From a virus, in the IMG/VR virus record IMGVR_UViG_3300029309_000046, positions 1-56,835 of that record: a stretch of 56,835 bases of DNA; one strand, written 5' to 3'. Position numbers and translations under genes: made by a program. The notes beneath the pieces were generated by a model. The model did no database searches. It was given only the letters and a program-made list of their open reading frames with translations, and was not told where the DNA came from. The first letter of the stretch is position 1. Every line of letters begins with the position of its first letter. Below are positions 3,885-15,543 of the stretch, in pieces.

Positions 3885-5147
3885 ATGGCATCAAGTTATT
3901 CAAGTGACCTAAAATTAGAACTAATGGTAACCGGTGAAAACGCTGGTACATGGGGTGATAAAACAAACACAAACTTAAACTTAATTCAACAAGCTGTAGC
4001 TGGTTTTGAACAAATCACACTAACATCTGGAGGCACTGTTGCATTAACAATGTCTGACGGTGCAATATCAAACGCAAGAAATTTAGTAATTAAATTTGCT
4101 ACAGCAACTATTGCTGCGAGTACAGTTTGTACTATACCAGATTCAATAGAAAAATTTTATATCTTTGATTGTTCAGGATTAACAAATGCCAATAATTTAA
4201 CAATTAAAACTGCATCAGGAACTGGTTTTAGTCCAACTGTTGCAGGGGCTGCTAGTTCAAAAATTTTTGCAGCATATTCAGATGGAACAAATTTAAACGA
4301 AATTTCTTTAAACACTTTAGGTGGTACAATTGCTACTGCTAATTTAGAAGCATCTGCAGTTACTACTTCAATTATTGCAGATGACGCTGTAACTTCAGCT
4401 AAAATAGCTGACGATGCCGTTGTCGCCGCTGCAATAGCTGATAATGCTGTCGTCACTGCTGCGATTGCTGACGATGCTGTGACTCAAGCCAAAATTGCTG
4501 ACGATGCAGTTGGAGCAGATCAACTTGCAAACACTACAGTAACAGCAGGGTCTTACACTGCATCAGATATTACAGTTGATGCTCAAGGAAGAATTACAGC
4601 CGCATCAGATGGATCATCAGGTGGAGGAAGTTTTTTATTTAAAGAAGCACATGGAGGTCCTTCTTCAGGAACTTACACAGCAAATGCAGCCGCAACACTT
4701 GCACAAATGTATGTATCTGGTGGTGGTGGTGGAAATGGTAGTAGCTTGCCTTTTCAAGGTTCAGGTGGGCCTGGCGGAAGAGGAGGCTTTGGGATTGTCT
4801 CTGTTGATGTAACGGCACCTTTTTCTCAACCATTTTCGGTAGGTACTGGAGGTAATCCTGCCGGCCCAGCTAATAATGCAGTACCTGGTAATGCAGGTAA
4901 TGCTACTAATATGGCATCGACATTCACAGCTAACGGTGGCGGTGGCGGTGGCGGGGCCAACTACAGAAACCCTGGTTCAGTAGGAGCTGCTGGTAACCTT
5001 AGTGTAACCTCACCATCTACTCAGTTAACACATGGATCTTACCCTAGTGTATATGCAACAGCAGGTGCAACAAGTAATAATATAATATCTTTTGGTGCCC
5101 AAGGACAACAAGGTTTAATACTTATTTTAGAAAATACAGGAACTTAA
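3885..5147 (+). CDS. Tail fibre with glycine-rich tip domain
   Basis: 420 residues, AAGGAG before the ATG. Residues 1-30 (YSSDLKLELMVTGENAGTWG) are the conserved virion-attachment segment of many marine phage fibres. Residues about 160-215 are a tandem array of AxIADDAVT-type repeats, a fibre-shaft hallmark. The last 160 residues hold poly-Gly blocks (SGGGGGNGSS, GGPGGRGGFG, NGGGGGGGANY) typical of glycine-rich receptor-binding tips. It is likely the host-recognition protein, with the glycine-rich part as the adhesive end. Confidence 0.82.
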   Translation: MASSYSSDLKLELMVTGENAGTWGDKTNTNLNLIQQAVAGFEQITLTSGGTVALTMSDGAISNARNLVIKFATATIAASTVCTIPDSIEKFYIFDCSGLTNANNLTIKTASGTGFSPTVAGAASSKIFAAYSDGTNLNEISLNTLGGTIATANLEASAVTTSIIADDAVTSAKIADDAVVAAAIADNAVVTAAIADDAVTQAKIADDAVGADQLANTTVTAGSYTASDITVDAQGRITAASDGSSGGGSFLFKEAHGGPSSGTYTANAAATLAQMYVSGGGGGNGSSLPFQGSGGPGGRGGFGIVSVDVTAPFSQPFSVGTGGNPAGPANNAVPGNAGNATNMASTFTANGGGGGGGANYRNPGSVGAAGNLSVTSPSTQLTHGSYPSVYATAGATSNNIISFGAQGQQGLILILENTGT

Positions 5148-5148
5148 A

Positions 5149-5601
5149 ATGGCAAAAATACTCTTTACAAAAAATTCTGTAAATCAAATTGGAGCTGTAG
5201 GTCACATTGCTCAAGATCAAAATTTTTTAGATTCAAATAAAAATTTTGATGAAGCTAACTTTGATATTCTAGATATTACAACAGAAGAATTTAATGACGT
5301 TAAAAATGGTGTAAAATTTGTATTAAGCCATAACGGGGAAACCGTTAGTTTTAACACAAGAGATACATCAGAAGATTTTTTTGATACAGAAAATGATTTA
5401 AAAACATACATCAATGATTTACTTGAACGTTTTGAAACATATTTACAATTTAATTCTTCTAAACCTTTAGCAAACACTGTTACTGTTTATTCAGATTGGT
5501 TAAAAAATTTAGATACTTCGTCAGTTTCTTTAAATTCAAGTTTAGAAAAATATGCAAGTGATCAAGGTGTAAATCCTGTACATCCACTTGAATTACTTTA
5601 A
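5149..5601 (+). CDS. Fibre-associated protein of unknown function
   Basis: 150 residues, starting one base after the fibre stop with AGGA upstream. The sequence begins MAKILFTKNSVNQIGAVGHI and is otherwise acidic and helical, without catalytic motifs. Proteins with this N-terminus often follow the fibre gene in marine phages, so a fibre chaperone or a fibre partner is possible. No function can be shown. Confidence 0.6.
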   Translation: MAKILFTKNSVNQIGAVGHIAQDQNFLDSNKNFDEANFDILDITTEEFNDVKNGVKFVLSHNGETVSFNTRDTSEDFFDTENDLKTYINDLLERFETYLQFNSSKPLANTVTVYSDWLKNLDTSSVSLNSSLEKYASDQGVNPVHPLELL

Positions 5602-5645: not shown

Positions 5646-6386
5646 ATGTTTGAAAATAAAATAGAATTTATTGCACACGAAGATTATGTAGACCTAAAAC
5701 AAGACCACCCAACTCCTATTAAATTAAATATTCCTAAATGGTATAAAAAATTAGAACATCAAATTTTTAAAAAAACTGTTAAGGGATGTATGCCTTTTTT
5801 AGATACATTAACATCTGGTTACCTTTTAAAGGTAGCTCAAGATTATGCTTTTAAATCATCTAAAAATGAAAAAGGAGAGGGTATACTAGAATGGCATCCA
5901 GCTAACTTAGATGGTTTACAATTCCAAGAAAAATCAATAAATTTAAATTCTTCACAGCCTAGTCTTCATTCTACAGATCAAATTTTAGGATCTCAATTGG
6001 TAGAGAAAAATAATAATGGGCCATTCATAAAAATATTAAACCCTTGGATTATTAAAACACCCCCCGGATATTCTTGTTTATTTTTACCTCCAATGAATAA
6101 CAGTGATGATAGATTTTCAATAATACCTGGAATAGTAGATACAGATTCATTTAAACAAGAAATTAATTTTCCAATAGTTTTAAATGGAGATAAATATCCT
6201 ATTATTGATACTATAATTAAAAGAGGTACTCCTTATGTTCAAATAATACCTTTCAAAAGAGAAAGTTGGTCAATGAAAATAAAATCTGTTACAACAAATC
6301 AATTAAAAAAACAAAAAATGTTTTATGAATTAAATATTATACATAATTATAAAAATAATTTTTGGAATAAGAAAAAATGGAATTAA
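5646..6386 (+). CDS. DUF6065-like protein
   Basis: 246 residues. Recognisable segments are IPKWYKKLEH, TVKGCMPFLDTLTSGYLLKV, PWIIKTPPGYSCLFLPPMN and PYVQIIPFKRESW, which match my recollection of the DUF6065 family found in marine phages and some bacteria. Function is unknown; the conserved GYS-FLPP core looks like a beta-barrel fold. No ribosome binding site is visible and the sequence is markedly more AT-rich than the upstream genes. It overlaps the next gene by 10 bases and opens the oxygenase/sulfotransferase cassette. Confidence 0.7.
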   Translation: MFENKIEFIAHEDYVDLKQDHPTPIKLNIPKWYKKLEHQIFKKTVKGCMPFLDTLTSGYLLKVAQDYAFKSSKNEKGEGILEWHPANLDGLQFQEKSINLNSSQPSLHSTDQILGSQLVEKNNNGPFIKILNPWIIKTPPGYSCLFLPPMNNSDDRFSIIPGIVDTDSFKQEINFPIVLNGDKYPIIDTIIKRGTPYVQIIPFKRESWSMKIKSVTTNQLKKQKMFYELNIIHNYKNNFWNKKKWN

Positions 6387-6937
6387 TAAATTTTATTTCT
6401 GTTTATGATGATATTTTACCCAAAAAACCTTTTGGAAAATTATTTAAAGTTTGTAAAGATTTAGACTGGCAAGATGCTTTTATTGGCAATGGATTATTAA
6501 ATAAAAACATAAGAAAAGTAAAAGTGCGTGAATTGTTGGATATTAGTAATTCAATGACTGAAGTTCATTGGTGTAACGTTATGGAAAATATTTTTAAAGT
6601 TAATATAGAAAAGTATGTGAATAGAAATAAAATTAAAAATATGTACAGCAAAGAATTAGAAGTAATACAAGTGTTAAAATATAGTGAATCAGATCACTAC
6701 GTTTGGCATTACGATGGTGGAACAAACTATCCAAGAACAATAAGTTGTGTATATTTTTTAAATGAAGATTATGAAGGAGGTGAACTTTGTTTTCAAAACC
6801 CAGATGGAACAGGTGAATTTGCAATACCTGTAAAAGAAAACAGAATGGTAATATGGCCTTCTACTTTTTTGTATCCTCATAGGGTTAAACCAGTTAAAAA
6901 AGGGGAAAGGTATAGCATCGTATCATGGTCAGTATAA
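6377..6937 (+). CDS. 2OG-Fe(II) oxygenase (prolyl hydroxylase type)
   Basis: 186 residues with a double-stranded beta-helix signature: WHYDGG supplies H111 and D113, YPHRVKPV supplies H168, and KGERYSIVSW supplies the 2-oxoglutarate-binding R178. The strand FLNEDYEGGELCF and the ENRMVIWPS segment fit the prolyl 4-hydroxylase-like fold. Such enzymes hydroxylate protein, nucleic acid or small-molecule substrates using O2 and 2-oxoglutarate. The substrate here is unknown. It overlaps the next oxygenase gene by 13 bases. Confidence 0.88.
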   Translation: MELINFISVYDDILPKKPFGKLFKVCKDLDWQDAFIGNGLLNKNIRKVKVRELLDISNSMTEVHWCNVMENIFKVNIEKYVNRNKIKNMYSKELEVIQVLKYSESDHYVWHYDGGTNYPRTISCVYFLNEDYEGGELCFQNPDGTGEFAIPVKENRMVIWPSTFLYPHRVKPVKKGERYSIVSWSV

Positions 6938-7500
6938 GAGAATTTAAATATAAAAAAATAAAAGATTTTTTAACTTTATCGGAAAAAAATCTTTTAAAAG
7001 ATTATTGTAGAATAGCACATAGATTAAATAAAAAAAATTATGATTTGGATCCAGAAAATAGTGGAACAACAAATTTTGATACATCTATTTATGCAGATCC
7101 TATCATGGAATCTTTGTTAGTAAATAAAAATTCACAGATGGAAAAAATTACTGGACTTTCTTTAAAACCAACTTATGCTTTTTGGAGAATGTATACCAAA
7201 TATGCTGAGTTAAAACCACACAAAGATCGGCCTGCTTGTGAAATTAGTGTCACTATAAATATAGGTGGTGATGGAACTGATTGGCCAATTATTATAGATG
7301 AAAATCCAATTAATTTAAAACCAGGAGAGGCTTCTGTATATTTAGGTTGTGAACTTATTCATTCTAGAAAAGAATTTTTAGGAGATTGGCAAGCTCAAGT
7401 TTTTCTTCACTACGTAGACGCAAATGGACCTTTTGCAGATCATTGGAAAGACAAAAGGGTTAAGTGGGGTACACAATTCATTAATAAAGAAGCCAGATAA
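6925..7500 (+). CDS. 2OG-Fe(II) oxygenase-like protein
   Basis: 191 residues. Iron-binding candidates are H99 and D101 in LKPHKDRP and H146 in CELIHSRKEF, with PGEASVYLG before the distal histidine. The usual arginine after the distal His is not obvious; WQAQVFLHY follows instead. A conserved type in marine phages, but the substrate is not known. It overlaps the previous oxygenase gene and precedes a 72-aa gene by 2 bases. Confidence 0.82.
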   Translation: MVSIREFKYKKIKDFLTLSEKNLLKDYCRIAHRLNKKNYDLDPENSGTTNFDTSIYADPIMESLLVNKNSQMEKITGLSLKPTYAFWRMYTKYAELKPHKDRPACEISVTINIGGDGTDWPIIIDENPINLKPGEASVYLGCELIHSRKEFLGDWQAQVFLHYVDANGPFADHWKDKRVKWGTQFINKEAR

Positions 7501-7502
7501 TA

Positions 7503-7721
7503 ATGAAATTTATACAATTTAAAGATGGTTCTTGTGATATCCTTTTTGAAGAACATGAAATAAAAATTATAAATAAAAATAAAAAACTACATTTACCTGC
7601 TGTAACTCTTAGACATTTTGGCAATGTATTGTCAAAAATGGTAATGGAGTGGAATGTTAATTTTAATGATGATGTAAAGAAATTGTTCACAGATAATTCT
7701 ACAGAGATAAAGGGAAAATAA
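7503..7721 (+). CDS. Conserved hypothetical protein, 72 aa
   Basis: Starts 2 bases after the oxygenase stop. The N-terminal half is beta-like (MKFIQFKDGSCDILFEEHEI) and the second half helical (LPAVTLRHFGNVLSKMVMEW). No metal-binding or catalytic motif is seen. Position between oxygenase genes suggests an accessory role in the same cassette, which is inference only. Confidence 0.6.
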   Translation: MKFIQFKDGSCDILFEEHEIKIINKNKKLHLPAVTLRHFGNVLSKMVMEWNVNFNDDVKKLFTDNSTEIKGK

Positions 7722-7724
7722 AAA

Positions 7725-8228
7725 TTGAATTATAAAATAATTGATAATTTTTTAGAAGAAGAAAAATTTAATAATTTGAGTAATTTTATAAAAGGCACAG
7801 ATATACCTTGGTTTGTTAACGAAGATGATGTTGAAAATAATACAAAAAATAAAAATGGTTTTTTTAGACATGTGTTTTACCACCGTTATGAATCTAAAAG
7901 TAATTGGATTACAAAAATTAATCCTATTATGGAAAAATTAAATCCTATTAGTCTCATCTCTATAAGAGCAAATTTAAATGTAAGAGATATAGATTCTGTT
8001 GAATCTTCTTATCATATAGACAACAAAAGTTTTTTAGCTCACACTGCTATTTTTTTTCTCAACGATTGTAATTCTAAAACATTTTTGAAATTACCTAATA
8101 AAGAGATAATTGTTGGAAGCAAAGAAAATAGAATGCTTATATTTAAATCATCAATATATCATAAAGTGATATATGCTACCGATATACATAAAAGATATGT
8201 AATTAATTTTAATTACATTCAAGATTAA
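7725..8228 (+). CDS. 2OG-Fe(II) oxygenase-like protein (TTG start)
   Basis: 167 residues starting with TTG; AGGGA lies about 9 bases upstream and no in-frame ATG fits the family start. Candidate iron ligands are H97 and D99 in SSYHIDN and H146 in SIYHKV, with R157 in HKRYVINFN as the 2OG contact. ENRMLIF precedes the distal His as in other members. The N-terminus (NYKIIDNFL) is shared with the next gene, so the two are adjacent paralogues. Substrate unknown. Confidence 0.78.
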   Translation: MNYKIIDNFLEEEKFNNLSNFIKGTDIPWFVNEDDVENNTKNKNGFFRHVFYHRYESKSNWITKINPIMEKLNPISLISIRANLNVRDIDSVESSYHIDNKSFLAHTAIFFLNDCNSKTFLKLPNKEIIVGSKENRMLIFKSSIYHKVIYATDIHKRYVINFNYIQD

Positions 8229-8230
8229 AA

Positions 8231-8704
8231 ATGAATTTTAAAATAATTGACAATTTTTTAGAAAAAGATTGTTTTGATAATATAAAAAAATTATCATGGG
8301 ATGCAAAAATTCCTTGGTATAAAGGAGAAGTAAATGATGTAGATGATAGTATATATTTTACTCATATTTTATTTGATGGGGAAAAATTACAAGTTTCTTA
8401 TTTATTAGAAAAATACAAACCATTAATTTCTTTACTTGAAATTAAATCATTAATAAGAATTAAAATTAATTATTATCCATCTAACAATGTAGTTAAAAAA
8501 CATGAATATCATTTTGATAAACCTTTTACTCACAAAGGCGCAATTTTTTCATTAAATACTTGTGATGGAGGAACATACATTCAAGATGAATTTGTACCCT
8601 CTATAGAAAATAGGTTATTATTATTTAATCCTGCAGAAAAACATTGTAGCACTGATACTACTGATAAAAAAGGTAGAATGAACATTAATTTCAATTATTT
8701 TTAA
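8231..8704 (+). CDS. 2OG-Fe(II) oxygenase-like protein, paralogue of the upstream gene
   Basis: 157 residues beginning NFKIIDNFLEKD, close to the start of the neighbouring paralogue. Candidate ligands are H94 and D96 in EYHFDKP, H138 in AEKHCS and R149 in KKGRMNINFNY; ENRLLLFNP precedes the distal His. Two bases separate it from each neighbour and no ribosome binding site is seen, so it may be translated by reinitiation. The reaction is inferred from motif only. Confidence 0.78.
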   Translation: MNFKIIDNFLEKDCFDNIKKLSWDAKIPWYKGEVNDVDDSIYFTHILFDGEKLQVSYLLEKYKPLISLLEIKSLIRIKINYYPSNNVVKKHEYHFDKPFTHKGAIFSLNTCDGGTYIQDEFVPSIENRLLLFNPAEKHCSTDTTDKKGRMNINFNYF

Positions 8705-8706
8705 AA

Positions 8707-9444
8707 ATGAATTTTAATTTTTTGTGTTCTCTTCCAAGATCAGGTAATACTTTACTTGGTTCGATTATAAATCAAAACGAAAATTTAAATATAACAGCTA
8801 ATACGATACTTACTGATGTTATTTATCAGCTGCATCTTTTAAAAAATAATGAAATTTTTTTAAATTTTCCTGACGAGAAATCACTTAATAATATTATTAA
8901 AAATTTATTTAATAATTATTATAAAGATTGGAAAGCAAAATTTATTATTGATAGAGGTTCATGGGGAACACCAGATAATTTAAAATTGTTAAAAACTATA
9001 ATTAAAAAACCTAAATTTATTATTTTAAAAAGACCTTTATTAGAATGTCTTGCTTCGTACATAAAAATAGAACAACCTAAAAATGTTGAAAAAAGATGTG
9101 ATGAATTGATTAGCCCTGAAGGAATGATAGGAAAAAATTTATGGAGTATTAAAAATATAATAGATCAGAAAGAAAATTTTATTATTATTAATTATAATGA
9201 CTTAGTAAATAATCCATTAAATGAAATAAACAAAATATATGATTTCTTAGATATAGAAAAATTTAATCATGATTTTAATAATATAAATCAATTTACAGCA
9301 AACAATATTAAATACAATGATGTTATCCTAAATGCTCCTTTTCATACAATAAGAACAAATAAAATAGAACTAAATAAAATTGAAGTTACAAAATATTTAC
9401 CTTATATTATTATTAATAAATATTCTGACTTAGATATTGTATAA
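8707..9444 (+). CDS. Sulfotransferase family protein
   Basis: 245 residues. LPRSGNTLLGSI at 9-20 is the 5'-phosphosulfate-binding loop of PAPS-dependent sulfotransferases, and FIILKRPLLECLASY at 105-119 fits the 3'-phosphate-binding element. IIINYNDLVNNPLNEINKIYDFL near 180 matches the late conserved segment of the fold. These enzymes transfer sulfate from PAPS to sugars, proteins or small molecules. Its placement inside an oxygenase cassette in a phage is unusual. Substrate unknown. Confidence 0.85.
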   Translation: MNFNFLCSLPRSGNTLLGSIINQNENLNITANTILTDVIYQLHLLKNNEIFLNFPDEKSLNNIIKNLFNNYYKDWKAKFIIDRGSWGTPDNLKLLKTIIKKPKFIILKRPLLECLASYIKIEQPKNVEKRCDELISPEGMIGKNLWSIKNIIDQKENFIIINYNDLVNNPLNEINKIYDFLDIEKFNHDFNNINQFTANNIKYNDVILNAPFHTIRTNKIELNKIEVTKYLPYIIINKYSDLDIV

Positions 9445-9974
9445 TGAAAATAAATTTATTTGAATCACACATTTACATAGATAATATAGATTGTTCTAAA
9501 ATTAATTTAGAAAATGAAAATTTTAAAAAAACTTGGGACTCTGAAACCTATAGCTCAAATTTATTTCAAAATAAACTAGATGAAGATTCACAATCTTATT
9601 TAATTAATAAAATTGGTAGTTTATTACAAAGTCAAATTTTAAAAGATTTTAAAATATCAATAACAGGTATTTGGCAAAATAATTATATCAAGGATGATTT
9701 TCAAGAAAAACATATGCACCCAGATTCACATTTTTCTTTTGTTATTTATAAAAAAATAGAAGAATCTAAAACTATTTTTTACCATCCAGTTCAAGATTTA
9801 ATTGCCTGTATGTATCCAACTGAATTTTTGCAAAAAACAAATTTTTTTCAACAAAAATTTGAAACGAAATGTCGTGAAAATCAAATAGTCTTGTTTCCTA
9901 GTTATTTAAAACACATGGTAAAAAAAAATAGTAATTCTATTACAATCTCAGGTAATATATTAATAACAGTGTAA
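9444..9974 (+). CDS. Putative 2OG-Fe(II) oxygenase (TIGR02466-like pattern)
   Basis: 176 residues, ATG overlapping the sulfotransferase stop. GIWQNNY, then DDFQEKHMHPDSHFSFVIY and ENQIVLFPSYLKHMV follow the layout of a family of small putative 2OG oxygenases. Ligand candidates are H90 or H92 and D94, with distal H157 in FPSYLKH. The arginine normally found after the distal His is replaced by serine (NSITISGN), so activity is uncertain. Last gene of the cassette. Confidence 0.72.
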   Translation: MKINLFESHIYIDNIDCSKINLENENFKKTWDSETYSSNLFQNKLDEDSQSYLINKIGSLLQSQILKDFKISITGIWQNNYIKDDFQEKHMHPDSHFSFVIYKKIEESKTIFYHPVQDLIACMYPTEFLQKTNFFQQKFETKCRENQIVLFPSYLKHMVKKNSNSITISGNILITV

Positions 9975-10038: not shown

Positions 10039-12198
10039 ATGCCATTAACAAAAGTAGATATAGCCCCAGGATTTAATAAACAAGTTACTCAAACAGGAGC
10101 ACAAGGAAAGTGGACTGATGGTGACTTTGTAAGATTTAGATATGGACTACCTGAAAAAATAGGGGGCTGGGAACAAATTTTAGAAAGCACATTAATTGGC
10201 GCAGCAAGAGAACAATTTATTTGGGCAGATTTAGACGGAAGAAAGTATGCTGCAATAGGTACAAATAAAGTATTAGTAATCTATTATGAAGGTGCCTTTT
10301 TTGATATTACACCTTTAGGCACAGCACTTACAGGATCCACATTTGATACTGTTAACACATCAGCTACCGTTACTGTAAACAAAGCAGCACATGGTCTTGA
10401 ACCTGGAGATATATTTTTATTTTCATCTGTTACACCTCCAACAGGTGCAGGATATGTTGCATCTGATTTTGAAACAAATCCATTTCAAGTAGTTACTGTA
10501 CCTGACAGTGATTCATTTACTGTAACTATGGCAAGCGCAGCAGGGACAACGGTCAACGGATCTGGGTCTGCAACAGTTACTCCATATATTAAACCAGGAG
10601 CTTTAAGTTCAACATTTGGATTTGGATGGGGGACAGGACTGTGGGGTGGTGGACAACAAGTGTTTAGCACATTAAACGGAGCTTTATTAGATGACACTGC
10701 TGGCACAGGAGGTTCAGGAACTTCAATTACACTTGCATCCACAACAGGATTTCCATCAACAGGAACAATAAAAGTTGGAGCAGAGTTTATTTCATACACA
10801 GGAATTTCATCTAATGATTTGACTGGTATTACAAGAGCTGCAGCGGGTACGAGATCTGCTCATTCAAGCGGAGCAGGGGTTGAAGTATTTACTGGGTGGG
10901 GTATCGAATCATTATCTCAAACTTTAACTGTTGATCCTGCATCTTGGTCTTTAGATAATTTTGGTGAACAACTTATTGCTACTATAAAAAATGGTCAATC
11001 TTTTTCTTGGAATCCTATTAACTCTAATTCTAATGCTTTAAATACAAGAGCTGTAATTATTTCTAATGCACCAACTGCATCTGTAATGTCTTTAGTTTCA
11101 GATAGAGATAGACATTTAGTTATGCTGGGAACTGAAACAACTATTGGAACTCCAGGAACACAAGACAAAATGTTTATAAGATTTTCAGATCAAGAAAATA
11201 TTTCTGATTACACACCAACATCTGTTAATACTGCGGGTACATTTAGACTTGACTCAGGAACAAAAATTGTTGGAGCAGTTAAAGGTAAAGATTATACTTT
11301 TATTTTAACTGATAATGCAGCTTATGTAATGCAATTTGTGGGCCCACCTTTTACTTTTTCAATTAGACAAGTGGGATCTAATTGCGGATGTATTGGGCAA
11401 CATGCTATGAAATATGTTAATGGTATAGTTTATTGGATGGGAGAATCTGGTGGTTTCTTTGCATTTGATGGTACTGTTAAATCTTTACCTTGCGCTGTTG
11501 AAGATTTTGTATTCACTACAAAAAATGGAAGTAATTTAGGAATTAATTATTCTGCTGGAGAATCTGTTTATGTTGGTCTAAATCATTTATACGAAGAAAT
11601 TTGTTGGTACTATCCACAAGCAACATCTGATTTTAATGATAGATATGTTTGTTATAATTACCAAGACGGCACTTGGGTAACTGGATCACTATCGAGAACT
11701 ACTTGGGTTGATGCTAATCTTTTTGAAAATCCATATGCAACAGAATTTACTTCAACTGGTGTTGGTACTTTTCCTACAGTTCAAGGAGTTACAAATATAA
11801 ATGGATCAACTAAATATTTTGAACATGAAAAAGGTGTTAACGAGGTAGACACAGCAGGTAACAAAACTGCAATTCCAGCTTTTATAGAATCTGGAGATTT
11901 TAGTTTAAATCCTCAGGGCACCAATGGTGAGTTTTTTATGAGTATGAGAAGATTTGTCCCTGACTTTAAAACTATACAAGGCAATGCTCAAGTAACAATT
12001 TTGCTTAGGGATTTTCCAAGTGATACAGAAGCATCGTCTCCACTAGGACCATTCACGGTCACCGGATCAACACAAAAGGTAGATACAAGAGCAAGAGCTA
12101 GATTTGCTAGTTTAAAAATAGCCAACACATCAACTGATGAAAATTGGCGTTTTGGAACTTTTAGAGCTGATGTACAATTAGATGGAATGAGGGGATAA
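10039..12198 (+). CDS. Tail nozzle / packaged-DNA stabilisation-type protein
   Basis: 719 residues starting MPLTKVDIAPGFNKQVTQTG. The central part is a repetitive beta pattern (ISNAPTASVMSLVSDRDRHL, VYWMGESGGFFAFDGT) compatible with a propeller, as in the tail tubular or DNA-stabilisation proteins T7 gp12 and P22 gp10. Two inserted Gly/Ser/Thr-rich domains lie near residues 95-185 and 215-285. It heads a new virion gene run after the cassette. Structural role is secure; equivalence to gp10 or gp12 is inferred. Confidence 0.75.
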   Translation: MPLTKVDIAPGFNKQVTQTGAQGKWTDGDFVRFRYGLPEKIGGWEQILESTLIGAAREQFIWADLDGRKYAAIGTNKVLVIYYEGAFFDITPLGTALTGSTFDTVNTSATVTVNKAAHGLEPGDIFLFSSVTPPTGAGYVASDFETNPFQVVTVPDSDSFTVTMASAAGTTVNGSGSATVTPYIKPGALSSTFGFGWGTGLWGGGQQVFSTLNGALLDDTAGTGGSGTSITLASTTGFPSTGTIKVGAEFISYTGISSNDLTGITRAAAGTRSAHSSGAGVEVFTGWGIESLSQTLTVDPASWSLDNFGEQLIATIKNGQSFSWNPINSNSNALNTRAVIISNAPTASVMSLVSDRDRHLVMLGTETTIGTPGTQDKMFIRFSDQENISDYTPTSVNTAGTFRLDSGTKIVGAVKGKDYTFILTDNAAYVMQFVGPPFTFSIRQVGSNCGCIGQHAMKYVNGIVYWMGESGGFFAFDGTVKSLPCAVEDFVFTTKNGSNLGINYSAGESVYVGLNHLYEEICWYYPQATSDFNDRYVCYNYQDGTWVTGSLSRTTWVDANLFENPYATEFTSTGVGTFPTVQGVTNINGSTKYFEHEKGVNEVDTAGNKTAIPAFIESGDFSLNPQGTNGEFFMSMRRFVPDFKTIQGNAQVTILLRDFPSDTEASSPLGPFTVTGSTQKVDTRARARFASLKIANTSTDENWRFGTFRADVQLDGMRG

Positions 12199-12911
12199 TG
12201 TTAACTGTAAATGATTTAATAGGGTTAAATTATTCTAATTTAAGAAATCCAATCACACCTAGACAAGACATGAATCGTAATCAACCTTTTTTAAATAGTA
12301 GTTATCCACAACCTGAATTTTTTCCAAATGATCAACAGGGTTCATTAAATGTTGACATGGGTGCTACAGGAACTATTCCAACAGCTGCAAAATTAAATCC
12401 ACAGCCTTTAATAAATGAAACATCTGGAATTGCTCCATTACTTATTTCTGATACTAATATGCCCTTAGATTATGAAGAAATGATACAAAGAGATGATTCT
12501 ATCATAACACCAAAAAGAAAAACTTCAGGTTTAGAAAATCTTTTACAATTAGCTATTTCTGCAGCAATACCGGGAGCAGGTCTTTTGATGAGAGGACCAA
12601 AAGGATTAGCGGGATTAAATAGAAGAATACAACAATCTGATTTTGGTCAAGCAACATCTTTAGCAGATTATTTAGATATGCAAAGATATGGAGGTTTACA
12701 AGGTAGATTAGATGCTGCTGCTAGAAATATGGCTCAGGCTAGAGGTATTCAAAAGAAAATAGATTCTGGAATGTATGATGATAAAGGTTCAGGAGGAATA
12801 GGTGACAGAGGAAGAGGTCAAACACCAACAAAAACAACTTCTTCAAAAAAATCAACCAGTAGACAATCAAGACAAACTTCGGGATCTGGAGGGTTACATA
12901 GTAATTATTAA
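12198..12911 (+). CDS. Putative internal virion protein, 237 aa
   Basis: ATG overlaps the preceding stop with GAGGGG upstream. The N-terminal 100 residues are Pro/Asn-rich and probably disordered. LLQLAISAAIPGAGLLMRGP near 115-134 is a short hydrophobic amphipathic segment, and the last 40 residues are Ser/Thr/Gly/Lys-rich. This layout resembles small injected or membrane-active virion proteins. No family recognised. Confidence 0.55.
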   Translation: MLTVNDLIGLNYSNLRNPITPRQDMNRNQPFLNSSYPQPEFFPNDQQGSLNVDMGATGTIPTAAKLNPQPLINETSGIAPLLISDTNMPLDYEEMIQRDDSIITPKRKTSGLENLLQLAISAAIPGAGLLMRGPKGLAGLNRRIQQSDFGQATSLADYLDMQRYGGLQGRLDAAARNMAQARGIQKKIDSGMYDDKGSGGIGDRGRGQTPTKTTSSKKSTSRQSRQTSGSGGLHSNY

Positions 12912-13555: not shown

Positions 13556-13752
13556 GTGATTTACCAAAAATAAAAGCAGAGGCTATAGAAACCATCAAAC
13601 ATAAGAGAACAGGTAAAGTGTATGATAGCAAAGCTGATTTTGATGCTGATGTTGCTGATCCCAACACTGATACTACTCAAGATGATTTTAGACAAGACCT
13701 TGAAATAAAAGTTACAAGAGCTGGTTCTTTGGGTGCAAAAACTAAAAAGTAA
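13552..13752 (+). CDS. Conserved hypothetical protein, 66 aa
   Basis: AAGGA eight bases before the ATG. The product is acidic in the middle (DADVADPNTDTTQDDFRQD) with a segment HKRTGKVYDSKADFDADV that recurs in small marine phage proteins. It sits between a basic protein and a glycosyltransferase. Function unknown. Confidence 0.6.
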   Translation: MSDLPKIKAEAIETIKHKRTGKVYDSKADFDADVADPNTDTTQDDFRQDLEIKVTRAGSLGAKTKK

Positions 13753-14681
13753 TGAAACCCAGAGGCGCAACTGAACTCCAACATGAGTTGCTTGAAAAAT
13801 TTGTAGATAAAAATTTATTAAGTAAATTTCAAATATGCACATCTATTCCTGGAAAAGTGCCACTGGACCCTAGTAAAATAAATATTCTTTGGCAAAAAAA
13901 TTCTTGGGATCAACCAAACCTACAAAGTTTTTTTAGAAACAAAGACAGACACCACGAATACGATTGGTATGTTTTTAATTCACATTGGTGTTATGAAAAA
14001 TTTAGATATTTTTTTCAAATACCTGAAGATAGATCTATTGTAATTAAAAATGGTGCACACCATTTCCCTAAAAGAAAAATATACAAAAAAGGTGATCCAA
14101 TTAGAATAATGCACCACTGTACACCTTGGAGGGGTTTGAACGTATTATTATTGGCTATGCAATATGTGCAAAATAAAAATATTACACTTGATGTATATAG
14201 TTCTAATGAAGTTTATGGAAAAGAGTTTGCCGATAGAGCAAACAAAGATACAGAAGGATTATTTGAACAAGCTAAAAAATTACCTAATGTAAATTACATT
14301 GGTTATAAACCTAATGAATATATATTGAAGCATATAACAGATTATGATTTATTTGTGTACCCATCTATATTTGAAGAAACATTTTGTGCTTCAGCTTTAG
14401 AAGCTTTAGCTGCAGGATTACATGTCATTACGACTAATTTTGGTGCTTTGCCTGAAACTTGCGCTGAATGGCCTGTCTATGTTAATTACACAAAAAATTT
14501 AGAATTGTTAGCAGGAAGCATAGCAGGAGCGATAGATGTAAGTGCACAATACTTACACACAGATACAATACAAAAACATTTAGATGAACAACAAAAATAT
14601 TATAAAAATTTTTATAGCTGGGATAAAAAAGCTATGGAATGGACAAACTTTTTGAAAGGAGCCCTAAGTGTCAAGCAGTAA
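13752..14681 (+). CDS. GT4-type glycosyltransferase (GT-B fold)
   Basis: 309 residues, ATG overlapping the upstream stop. The C-terminal Rossmann domain shows DYDLFVYPSIFEETFCASAL followed by EALAAGLHVI, with the EX7E pair E209/E217 that binds the nucleotide sugar. PIRIMHHCTPWRGLNVLL marks the second domain start. The N-terminal domain is shorter than usual. Likely adds sugars to a virion or host surface molecule. It overlaps the next glycosyltransferase gene by 14 bases. Confidence 0.87.
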   Translation: MKPRGATELQHELLEKFVDKNLLSKFQICTSIPGKVPLDPSKINILWQKNSWDQPNLQSFFRNKDRHHEYDWYVFNSHWCYEKFRYFFQIPEDRSIVIKNGAHHFPKRKIYKKGDPIRIMHHCTPWRGLNVLLLAMQYVQNKNITLDVYSSNEVYGKEFADRANKDTEGLFEQAKKLPNVNYIGYKPNEYILKHITDYDLFVYPSIFEETFCASALEALAAGLHVITTNFGALPETCAEWPVYVNYTKNLELLAGSIAGAIDVSAQYLHTDTIQKHLDEQQKYYKNFYSWDKKAMEWTNFLKGALSVKQ

Positions 14682-15543
14682 ATATATCAATGAGGATACA
14701 TATCAAACATTACAAGAAGTAAATATAGAAACACAATCTGATTATGAAAAAGCTACAGAACCTTTATGGAAAGAAGATCCAAATCAATATAAAGATATAG
14801 AATTATTTGTAGCGACACCTGTACATAGTGAAGTTTCTATACACTACACTCAAGCTTTAATAGAGTTTCAACAAGAGTGTTTTAAGAAAAAACTTAAAGT
14901 ATCTTTTCATTTAATAAAATCATCTTTAGTAACTCAAGGAAGAAACTTATCTGTAGCTGGTTTATTAGAGTCGAAAGCAACACATTTATTATTTATTGAT
15001 TCTGACATATATTTTCAAGGTAAATCTATATTTGCTATGTTAAATGCAGACAAGCATATTATATCTGTACCATATCCTTTAAAAACTTTAATGTGGGAAA
15101 AAGCTTTTAATAAAATGCAACAAGGTTTAATTAAATCACCCGATGATATAAGAAAAGCTTTGCACACTTATCCTATGAAAGTGCCCGATCCTAATAATAT
15201 AAAGGTTGATAAAGGTGTTATGGAAGTAACAGATTCACCAACAGGATGTATGCTTATTAAGAGAGAAGTTATAGAAAAAATGATTGAGAAATATCCTGAA
15301 AAAGAAATAGTACAAAAGACAGTCATCAACGGTAAATATGTTAACAAACCTAATATGTGGAATTTTTTTGATACTCTTCATGACCCAAAAGAAAAGACTT
15401 ACAACGGAGAAGATTTTGCATTTTGTAAACTTTGGAGAGATTTAGGGGGTAAATGCTATGCCTATATTAATGACGCGATAGTGCATGTAGGAGAGCATCA
15501 ATACCAAGGCAAGTTTCATGATGAGTTGATATCAGCCAAGTAA
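14668..15543 (+). CDS. GT-A glycosyltransferase-like protein (GTG start)
   Basis: 291 residues. GTG at 14668 is supported by AAGGAG six bases upstream. IELFVATPVHSEV opens the nucleotide-binding domain, QGRNLSVAGLLE follows, and HLLFIDSDIYFQ holds a DxD metal/nucleotide-sugar motif at 111-113. EDFAFCKLWRDLGGKCY near 270 fits the acceptor-side acidic motif. Paired with the upstream GT-B enzyme, it suggests a two-step glycan addition. Acceptor unknown. Confidence 0.82.
   Translation: MSSSKYINEDTYQTLQEVNIETQSDYEKATEPLWKEDPNQYKDIELFVATPVHSEVSIHYTQALIEFQQECFKKKLKVSFHLIKSSLVTQGRNLSVAGLLESKATHLLFIDSDIYFQGKSIFAMLNADKHIISVPYPLKTLMWEKAFNKMQQGLIKSPDDIRKALHTYPMKVPDPNNIKVDKGVMEVTDSPTGCMLIKREVIEKMIEKYPEKEIVQKTVINGKYVNKPNMWNFFDTLHDPKEKTYNGEDFAFCKLWRDLGGKCYAYINDAIVHVGEHQYQGKFHDELISAK

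Follow-up and report, generated by a model that had tools for sequence, protein, structure and literature searches.

The 56,835-base IMG/VR record IMGVR_UViG_3300029309_000046, the whole of which is here called the window, contains a cassette of enzyme genes at positions 5646-9974, which is probably the tailoring half of a phage receptor-binding module, modifying the adhesin at the tip of the tail fibre. This reading builds on the enzyme families and their catalytic residues, the coupling of the enzymes to tip genes, the hypervariable block that both share, and the coupling of the sulfotransferase to a probable 3'-phosphoadenosine 5'-phosphosulfate (PAPS)-forming kinase in related phages. Eight intact open reading frames (ORFs) were present, coding for a DUF6065-family protein (p1), five 2-oxoglutarate (2OG)-Fe(II) oxygenases (p2, p3, p5, p6, and p8), a PAPS-type sulfotransferase (ST), and a small protein (p4), in agreement with a prediction made earlier from the sequence alone (the original prediction), which had listed seven genes plus a small one. 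Neighbouring ORFs nearly all overlap or abut. The AT-richness noted in that prediction was found as well, the GC content being 24.2% for the cassette versus 33.7% for the whole record. Judged by homologous structural genes and gene order, the window phage is a relative of the HTVC023P-type pelagiphages. Indeed, its nozzle/stabilisation protein shares 59% identity with gp72 of HTVC023P, a cultured Pelagibacter phage, with a similar surrounding gene order, and its two post-nozzle glycosyltransferase-like genes, TerL, portal, primase, helicase, and DNA polymerase agree with this phage type.

Coupling of the enzymes to fibre-tip genes

The comparison covered about 230 loci in all (designated L plus a number), with 80 IMG/VR loci chosen on the nozzle protein only and three phage records. 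In these 80 loci and three records, 213 of 247 enzyme-family genes occupied the interval that separates a tip-type gene from the structural gene following it (the slot), 68 of them in contigs truncated at the tip end. The enzyme density per kb amounted to 1.23-1.32 in the slot, versus 0.06 downstream of the nozzle gene and 0.23 upstream. The tip-type genes of the slot vary, encompassing a glycine-rich fibre C-terminus plus f2 (as in the window), a separate glycine-rich protein plus a 125-165-amino acid (aa) protein named WKQ, RCC-type repeat proteins, and tail-collar proteins. In the f2-type loci, p2 and p3 were retrieved in 23 out of 23 cases and p1 in 19 out of 23. Within the fibre-nozzle interval, 47 loci possessed both a tip and an enzyme, eight neither, three only a tip, and two only an enzyme (Fisher, 2.6e-6); as the compared loci are mutually related and not independent, this and the other p-values serve as guides only. 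Furthermore, in 023Pt_psg01 (L002), cultured HTVC023P (L003), L064, L087, and L140, the TIP-WKQ block is located upstream of n2880-fib, with oxygenases directly behind it, and in three of these five loci the fibre and nozzle genes are adjacent, with no genes between them. Such relocated blocks separate movement with the adhesin from a hot spot before the nozzle gene. A second glycine-rich tip with its own p8 was found in L003 and L064. The enzymes travel with tip genes, and the slot differs from a moron site filled at random. The original prediction had named scattered, unlinked genes in related phages as the outcome that would speak against it; instead, the linkage was kept, together with a tie to receptor-binding genes.

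Tip, f2, and enzymes form one hypervariable block with sharp bounds, with aa identities of 24-57% inside the block and mostly 85-99% in its flanks. Between the window and L012, aa identity is 85-99% for the upstream structural genes and 91% for the nozzle protein, versus 77% for the N-terminal part of the fibre, 37% for the tip, 29% for f2, 54% for p1, 37% for p2, 46% for p3, and 24% for p5. Similarly, aa identity to relatives is mostly 77-82% in the N-terminal part of the fibre and 36-43% in its tip, and f2, which lies within the variable block between the fibre and p1, is 28-34% identical even to near relatives. The synonymous divergence of p1-p3 is about that of the nozzle gene and the nonsynonymous divergence (dN) is roughly ten times higher, with synonymous sites near saturation. 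The enzymes thus evolve, or are swapped, about as fast as the tip of the adhesin.

The description of the cassette as an insertion oversimplifies, since an oxygenase core is the usual content of the slot in relatives, and composition alone varies. Indeed, the closest relatives (L009, L010, and L012) already carry f2-p1-p2-p3-(p4)-p5, so that the cassette does not represent one single insertion; p6-ST-p8 is the only addition of the window. Its placement between the fibre and nozzle genes was correct on the right, where the nozzle gene borders the cassette, but on the left f2 (5149-5601) separates the fibre gene from p1. As for the reported scarcity of ribosome binding sites, five of the eight genes have no Shine-Dalgarno-like core, but this is a weak argument, as several other genes, the nozzle gene included, have none either. 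Promoters and terminators in the cassette region did not exceed the level in shuffled sequence.

Enzyme families and sulfate-donor supply

All cassette genes are on the + strand. Based on sequence profiles and iron triads, p2, p5, and p6 are 2OG-Fe(II) oxygenases. The p2 gene (6377..6937) codes for a protein of the PKHD/prolyl-hydroxylase type (PF13640, 8.5e-20), the family profile of which matches PKHD hydroxylases, prolyl 3-hydroxylase 1, and EGLN1, and the catalytic residues of which (H111, D113, H168, and R178) are kept in 29 out of 29 family members. The p5 gene (7725..8228; TTG start; phrog_274, 2.3e-38) codes for a protein with an HID..H..R motif, and p6 (8231..8704; phrog_274, 3e-33) for its paralogue. 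PF13640 (2OG-FeII_Oxy_3) is matched by 21 of the 43 members of the p5/p6 family (best, 8.4e-11), of which 36-38 possess the p6 residues H94, D96, H138, and R149 (iron triad, 36-37 out of 43). EGLN1 is the top PDB match of the p6 family, albeit weak (0.007). The PHROG label of phrog_274, DNA endonuclease V, was rejected for p5 and p6, as no family member matches endonuclease V, whereas members match PF13640.

The p3 protein (6925..7500), without a Pfam match, is a 2OG-Fe(II) oxygenase to judge from its AlphaFold2 (AF2) model (predicted local distance difference test score, pLDDT, 93.5), which supports a double-stranded beta-helix of the prolyl-hydroxylase type, the fold that the original prediction had proposed as a structural test. 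In a Foldseek search of this model against the PDB, PHD/P4H prolyl hydroxylases lead (E from 5.8e-7), and the triad H99, D101, and H146 is present in 34 out of 35 homologues. The Fe/2OG residues of p2 and p3, the modelled fold of p3, and the likely fold of p2 are those of the EGLN/PHD, PKHD, and P4H prolyl hydroxylases, with low sequence identity (10-17% for p3 in Foldseek). The PHROG label ferrochelatase was discarded for p3, as a Pfam ferrochelatase match was absent from the 35 family members and a prolyl-hydroxylase fold was found instead. The labels ferrochelatase (phrog_2954 and phrog_3531) and DNA endonuclease V (phrog_274) have been carried over into the annotation of phages, for example HTVC023P gp67 and 023Pt_psg01; gp67 belongs to the p3 family.

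The p8 protein (9444..9974) is a predicted oxygenase of the 2OG-FeII_Oxy_5 family (PF13759, 3.1e-11; 44 bits versus a cut-off of 27), with a family profile matching the crystal structures 3bvc (9.2e-26) and 2rg4. Its motif is HxH..H (H90, H92, and H157; invariant in 26 out of 26 homologues), not the canonical HxD..H triad, so that the HxD...H signature originally ascribed to all five proteins applies to p2, p3, p5, and p6.

The ST gene (8707..9444) codes for a predicted PAPS-dependent sulfotransferase resembling protein-tyrosine sulfotransferases, in line with the PAPS-type enzyme originally predicted. Both PF13469 (1.3e-10) and PF00685 (5.6e-9) score above cut-off, the 5'-phosphosulfate-binding (5'-PSB) loop reads PRSGNT, and the 3'-phosphate-binding residues R109 and S117 are kept in 23 and 24 out of 24 sequences, respectively. 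TPST1/2 provide the best PDB profile match (TPST1, 5.6e-12; positions 4-200 of 258), although the window ST differs as a bacteriophage protein and the similarity is distant. A separate search starting from ST yielded 60 ST-selected loci, 54 of which have a 2OG gene at most four genes away; an adhesin-type gene occurs at most eight genes away in 52 of the 56 loci with upstream sequence. The TIP-WKQ-ST module recurs in other phage backgrounds (L089-L092, L096, L097, and L104-L108). Since the ST gene behind TIP-WKQ in the different phage background of L089 is 87-88% identical at nucleotide level to that of the window, and the module of L092 sits behind a tail-tip-like protein, this module crosses phage lineages. 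In addition, when 84,980 species genomes were scanned for two conserved ST peptide patterns, a single contig of a metagenome-assembled genome (L149) matched, without adhesin or 2OG neighbours, and the ST subfamily therefore looks viral.

Many ST loci present ST, then a 129-aa P-loop kinase, and then a 114-aa HxGH nucleotidyltransferase (for instance L100:3673-4390, L102:6860-7586, and L113:7526-8734, besides about 20 other ST loci). The kinase scores 21.8-22.3 bits for APS_kinase (cut-off, 21.1), and adenosine 5'-phosphosulfate (APS) kinases are its PDB matches of longest coverage; the L119 member matches TIGR00455 at 5.5e-10, yet far below the cut-off of that model. A further search with the kinase as query yielded 55 close homologues, of which 46 have ST at most three genes away, three an 'FHTS.CGST' protein, and three a Sulfotransfer_2 gene, with two at contig ends and one (L168) having none. 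The PDB matches of the 'FHTS.CGST' protein up to E = 1 are exclusively sulfotransferases, and the Sulfotransfer_2 genes paired with the kinase (L166, L199, and L202) are above cut-off. Hence, 52 of 53 untruncated kinase loci have a nearby sulfotransferase of any of three families. As one kinase family couples to three sulfotransferase families, there is strong evidence that it makes PAPS. The nucleotidyltransferase, closest to nicotinamide mononucleotide (NMN) adenylyltransferases, may make APS. A phage-borne PAPS supply fits a SAR11 host, as SAR11 is without sat and cysDNHIJ, although strains retain cysC, cysQ, and aprA (PMC5069961). Among the f2-type relatives, L167, L181, and L182 carry both ST and the kinase.

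Other chemistry was found in the slot too. A flavin-dependent halogenase occurs between tip and nozzle genes in L110, L111, L113, and L115 (PF04820, 1.2e-80), in L113 (4711-6147) between 2OG genes. Carbamoyltransferases were recognised by Pfam in L062:4918-6351 and L181:3971-5622, the latter split into two genes, and by eye in L061, L065, and L078; L080 contains a glycosyltransferase. VirX1 of Syn10 is a cyanophage flavin-dependent halogenase. This PrnA/VirX-type class is shared with the slot of the four halogenase loci and is absent from the window, and the slot halogenases may bear on the substrates of the cyanophage enzymes. In HTVC008M, a flavin-dependent halogenase adjoins a 2OG gene.

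Proposed function and competing explanations

If the cassette tailors the adhesin, p2, p3, p5, p6, and p8 would act in the infected cell, while the tail is being assembled or earlier, and hydroxylate residues in the glycine-rich tip of the fibre or in f2, the partner of the tip. ST, if active in the window phage, would transfer sulfate from PAPS to an adhesin hydroxyl, be it on tyrosine, serine/threonine, or a hydroxylated residue. In some relatives, the fibre-tip adhesin would be halogenated or carbamoylated, so that the chemistry of the host-binding surface could vary past the 20 amino acids, co-diversifying with the tip. Several observations weigh against such tailoring. There is no APS-kinase match in the window and no called window ORF matches the other PAPS-supply gene, the nucleotidyltransferase, so that its PAPS would have to be host-derived. 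Among the f2-type loci, the identity of p2 or p3 does not follow that of the tip after correction for nozzle identity (partial correlations, -0.02 and -0.06); f2 and p3 alone co-vary after this correction (0.32, p 0.004). Tip composition differs weakly between loci with and without ST (Tyr, 2.6 versus 2.1%; uncorrected p 0.02), and several other residues shift too. Finally, some p6/p8-type genes are located elsewhere in the genome, and not every fibre gene is followed by an enzyme gene.

The main rival, which is rather unlikely, is that in the late stage of infection the enzymes modify a receptor on the host surface, be it a polysaccharide, a lipid, or an outer-membrane protein, blocking superinfection or the sticking of progeny to debris, with the adjacency to the tip arising from the shared receptor. 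It predicts most of the same genomic coupling, and the slot indeed holds genes for glycosyltransferases and carbamoyltransferases, enzymes characteristic of the chemistry of surface glycans (L080, L061, L062, and L181); in the window, two glycosyltransferase-like genes lie beyond the nozzle gene. However, the p2/p3-type oxygenases and ST are closest to protein-acting enzymes (prolyl hydroxylases and TPST), and the genes are placed inside the structural-gene array, not in an early or lysogeny region. Earlier papers favoured auxiliary metabolism (PMC3037559, PMC2984593, and PMC9599517), whereby unrelated useful genes for 2OG/nitrogen signalling, DNA repair, iron/haem, or sulfur metabolism would pile up between tail genes. 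Such a moron hot spot is quite improbable, as the content is non-random, the genes coding mostly for enzymes that modify proteins or glycans, the sulfotransferase comes with a supply of its own cofactor, the enzymes are tied to tip genes wherever these are located, and the alleged ferrochelatase has a prolyl-hydroxylase fold. The original prediction, hydroxylation followed by sulfation of a virion protein, glycan, or host surface molecule, can in a strict version be read as one pathway, in which the oxygenases make a hydroxyl that ST then sulfates. That 2OG genes neighbour ST in 54 of the 60 ST-selected loci agrees with it, but this strict version is very doubtful: most relatives have oxygenases without a sulfotransferase (ST being rare, in about three of the 80 nozzle-selected loci), ST also adjoins other enzymes, there are five oxygenases per one ST, and a TPST-like enzyme would need no prior hydroxylation.

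Beyond adhesin tailoring in the window, a broader and more tentative proposal, with a chance somewhat short of even, is that marine phages widely carry mobile adhesin-maturation islands, in which a tip gene is accompanied by its own hydroxylases, a sulfotransferase with dedicated PAPS synthesis, a halogenase, and a carbamoyltransferase. The chemically decorated receptor-binding surface would then add a further level, besides protein sequence, at which host range can vary. Phage virion glycosylation is an already known kind of modification. Cyanophage 2OG oxygenases have earlier been read as modulators of 2OG or as DNA repair enzymes (PMC3037559; PMC2984593), and Wittmers 2022 (PMC9599517) describes colocated 2OG and ferrochelatase genes as partner auxiliary metabolic genes in HTVC023P-type phages. 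The families are the same as those of the window, and cultured HTVC023P and HTVC027P hold them in the same tail region; similarly, the T4-like cyanophage S-RSM4 (L234 3874-9244) has a tail fibre gene, a WKQ-type gene, and three 2OG genes in order. The difference is that these genes have been filed as auxiliary metabolic genes, whereas the ferrochelatase partner is itself a probable 2OG oxygenase; because p3 is a predicted oxygenase, the published partners (PMC9599517), if of the p3 family, should be re-read as oxygenases. In the accessible parts of the literature on HTVC023P-type and cyanophage 2OG genes, no link to an adhesin, a sulfotransferase, or PAPS supply was found. Phage sulfotransferases, the function of which has been called unclear (PMC10580990), include homologous Sulfotransfer_3 proteins of S-SKS1, S-SRM01, and OM43 phages, the S-SKS1 copy adjoining repeat fibre-like and 2OG genes; their coupling to an adhesin and APS kinase is new in the present analysis. 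In marine phages, oxygenases, sulfotransferases, and halogenases were each known on their own, their functions being described as unclear or metabolic, and their union as an adhesin-coupled module appears to be the new aspect. Neither phage adhesin hydroxylation or sulfation nor an adhesin-coupled enzyme module was found in the literature searched, which was mostly without subscription journals. The many oxygenases in phages that infect the commonest bacteria of the ocean have lacked an explanation ever since cyanophage genomes were first sequenced. Should these enzymes tailor the tip, supposed auxiliary metabolic genes would become part of host recognition, the needs for O2, iron, 2OG, and sulfate would connect infection with the chemistry of the ocean, and the evolution of adhesins would gain a chemical dimension.

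Fibre, small proteins, and neighbouring genes

The tail fibre gene (3885..5147, + strand; phrog_892 tail fibre, 2.8e-16) codes for a conserved N-terminal part of about 239 aa and a glycine-rich hypervariable tip of 181 aa at the C-terminus (4602-5144; 43 Gly), which is presumably both the adhesin and the substrate of the cassette enzymes. Its PF21722 Gly_rich_2 score (23.2 bits) is slightly below the cut-off of 24.3. The hypervariable partner of the tip, f2 (5149..5601, + strand; 150 aa), may be a chaperone or a tip component. The p4 gene (7503..7721; 72 aa) is a steady companion of p3 in f2-type loci and occurs in 25 relatives; Pfam and PHROG searches yielded no family match for it.

The p1 gene (5646-6386; phrog_7084, 5.9e-47) is DUF6065-like by family, as originally predicted, PF19541 being matched by 11 of 22 aligned homologues (best, 2.6e-38), but the window copy is itself below the Pfam threshold. 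Its AF2 model (pLDDT 87) matches weakly a dUTPase-like barrel alone, with no convincing function. Many tailed viruses of haloarchaea also possess DUF6065 homologues, with matches in 52 phage records; that of halophage HF1 (L008; 5902-6786) lies a few genes from baseplate genes. DUF6065 immediately precedes ST in L103, L109, and L114. In a 107-kb contig (L143/L144; L144:7214-9495), opposite-strand DUF6065 genes flank ST on both sides, away from recognised tail genes.

To the right, outside the cassette, the nozzle/stabilisation structural gene (10039..12198, + strand; phrog_3287, 3e-86) forms a conserved border, with 91-94% aa identity to L009-L012. The next gene (12198-12911; 237 aa) represents a second variable spot, with no recognisable homologue in L010 and L011 and about 30% identity elsewhere. 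Further downstream (13752-15543), a group-1 glycosyltransferase gene and an adjacent, weakly Anp1-like gene are conserved in HTVC023P-type phages, and this pair is possibly involved in virion or host glycan modification.

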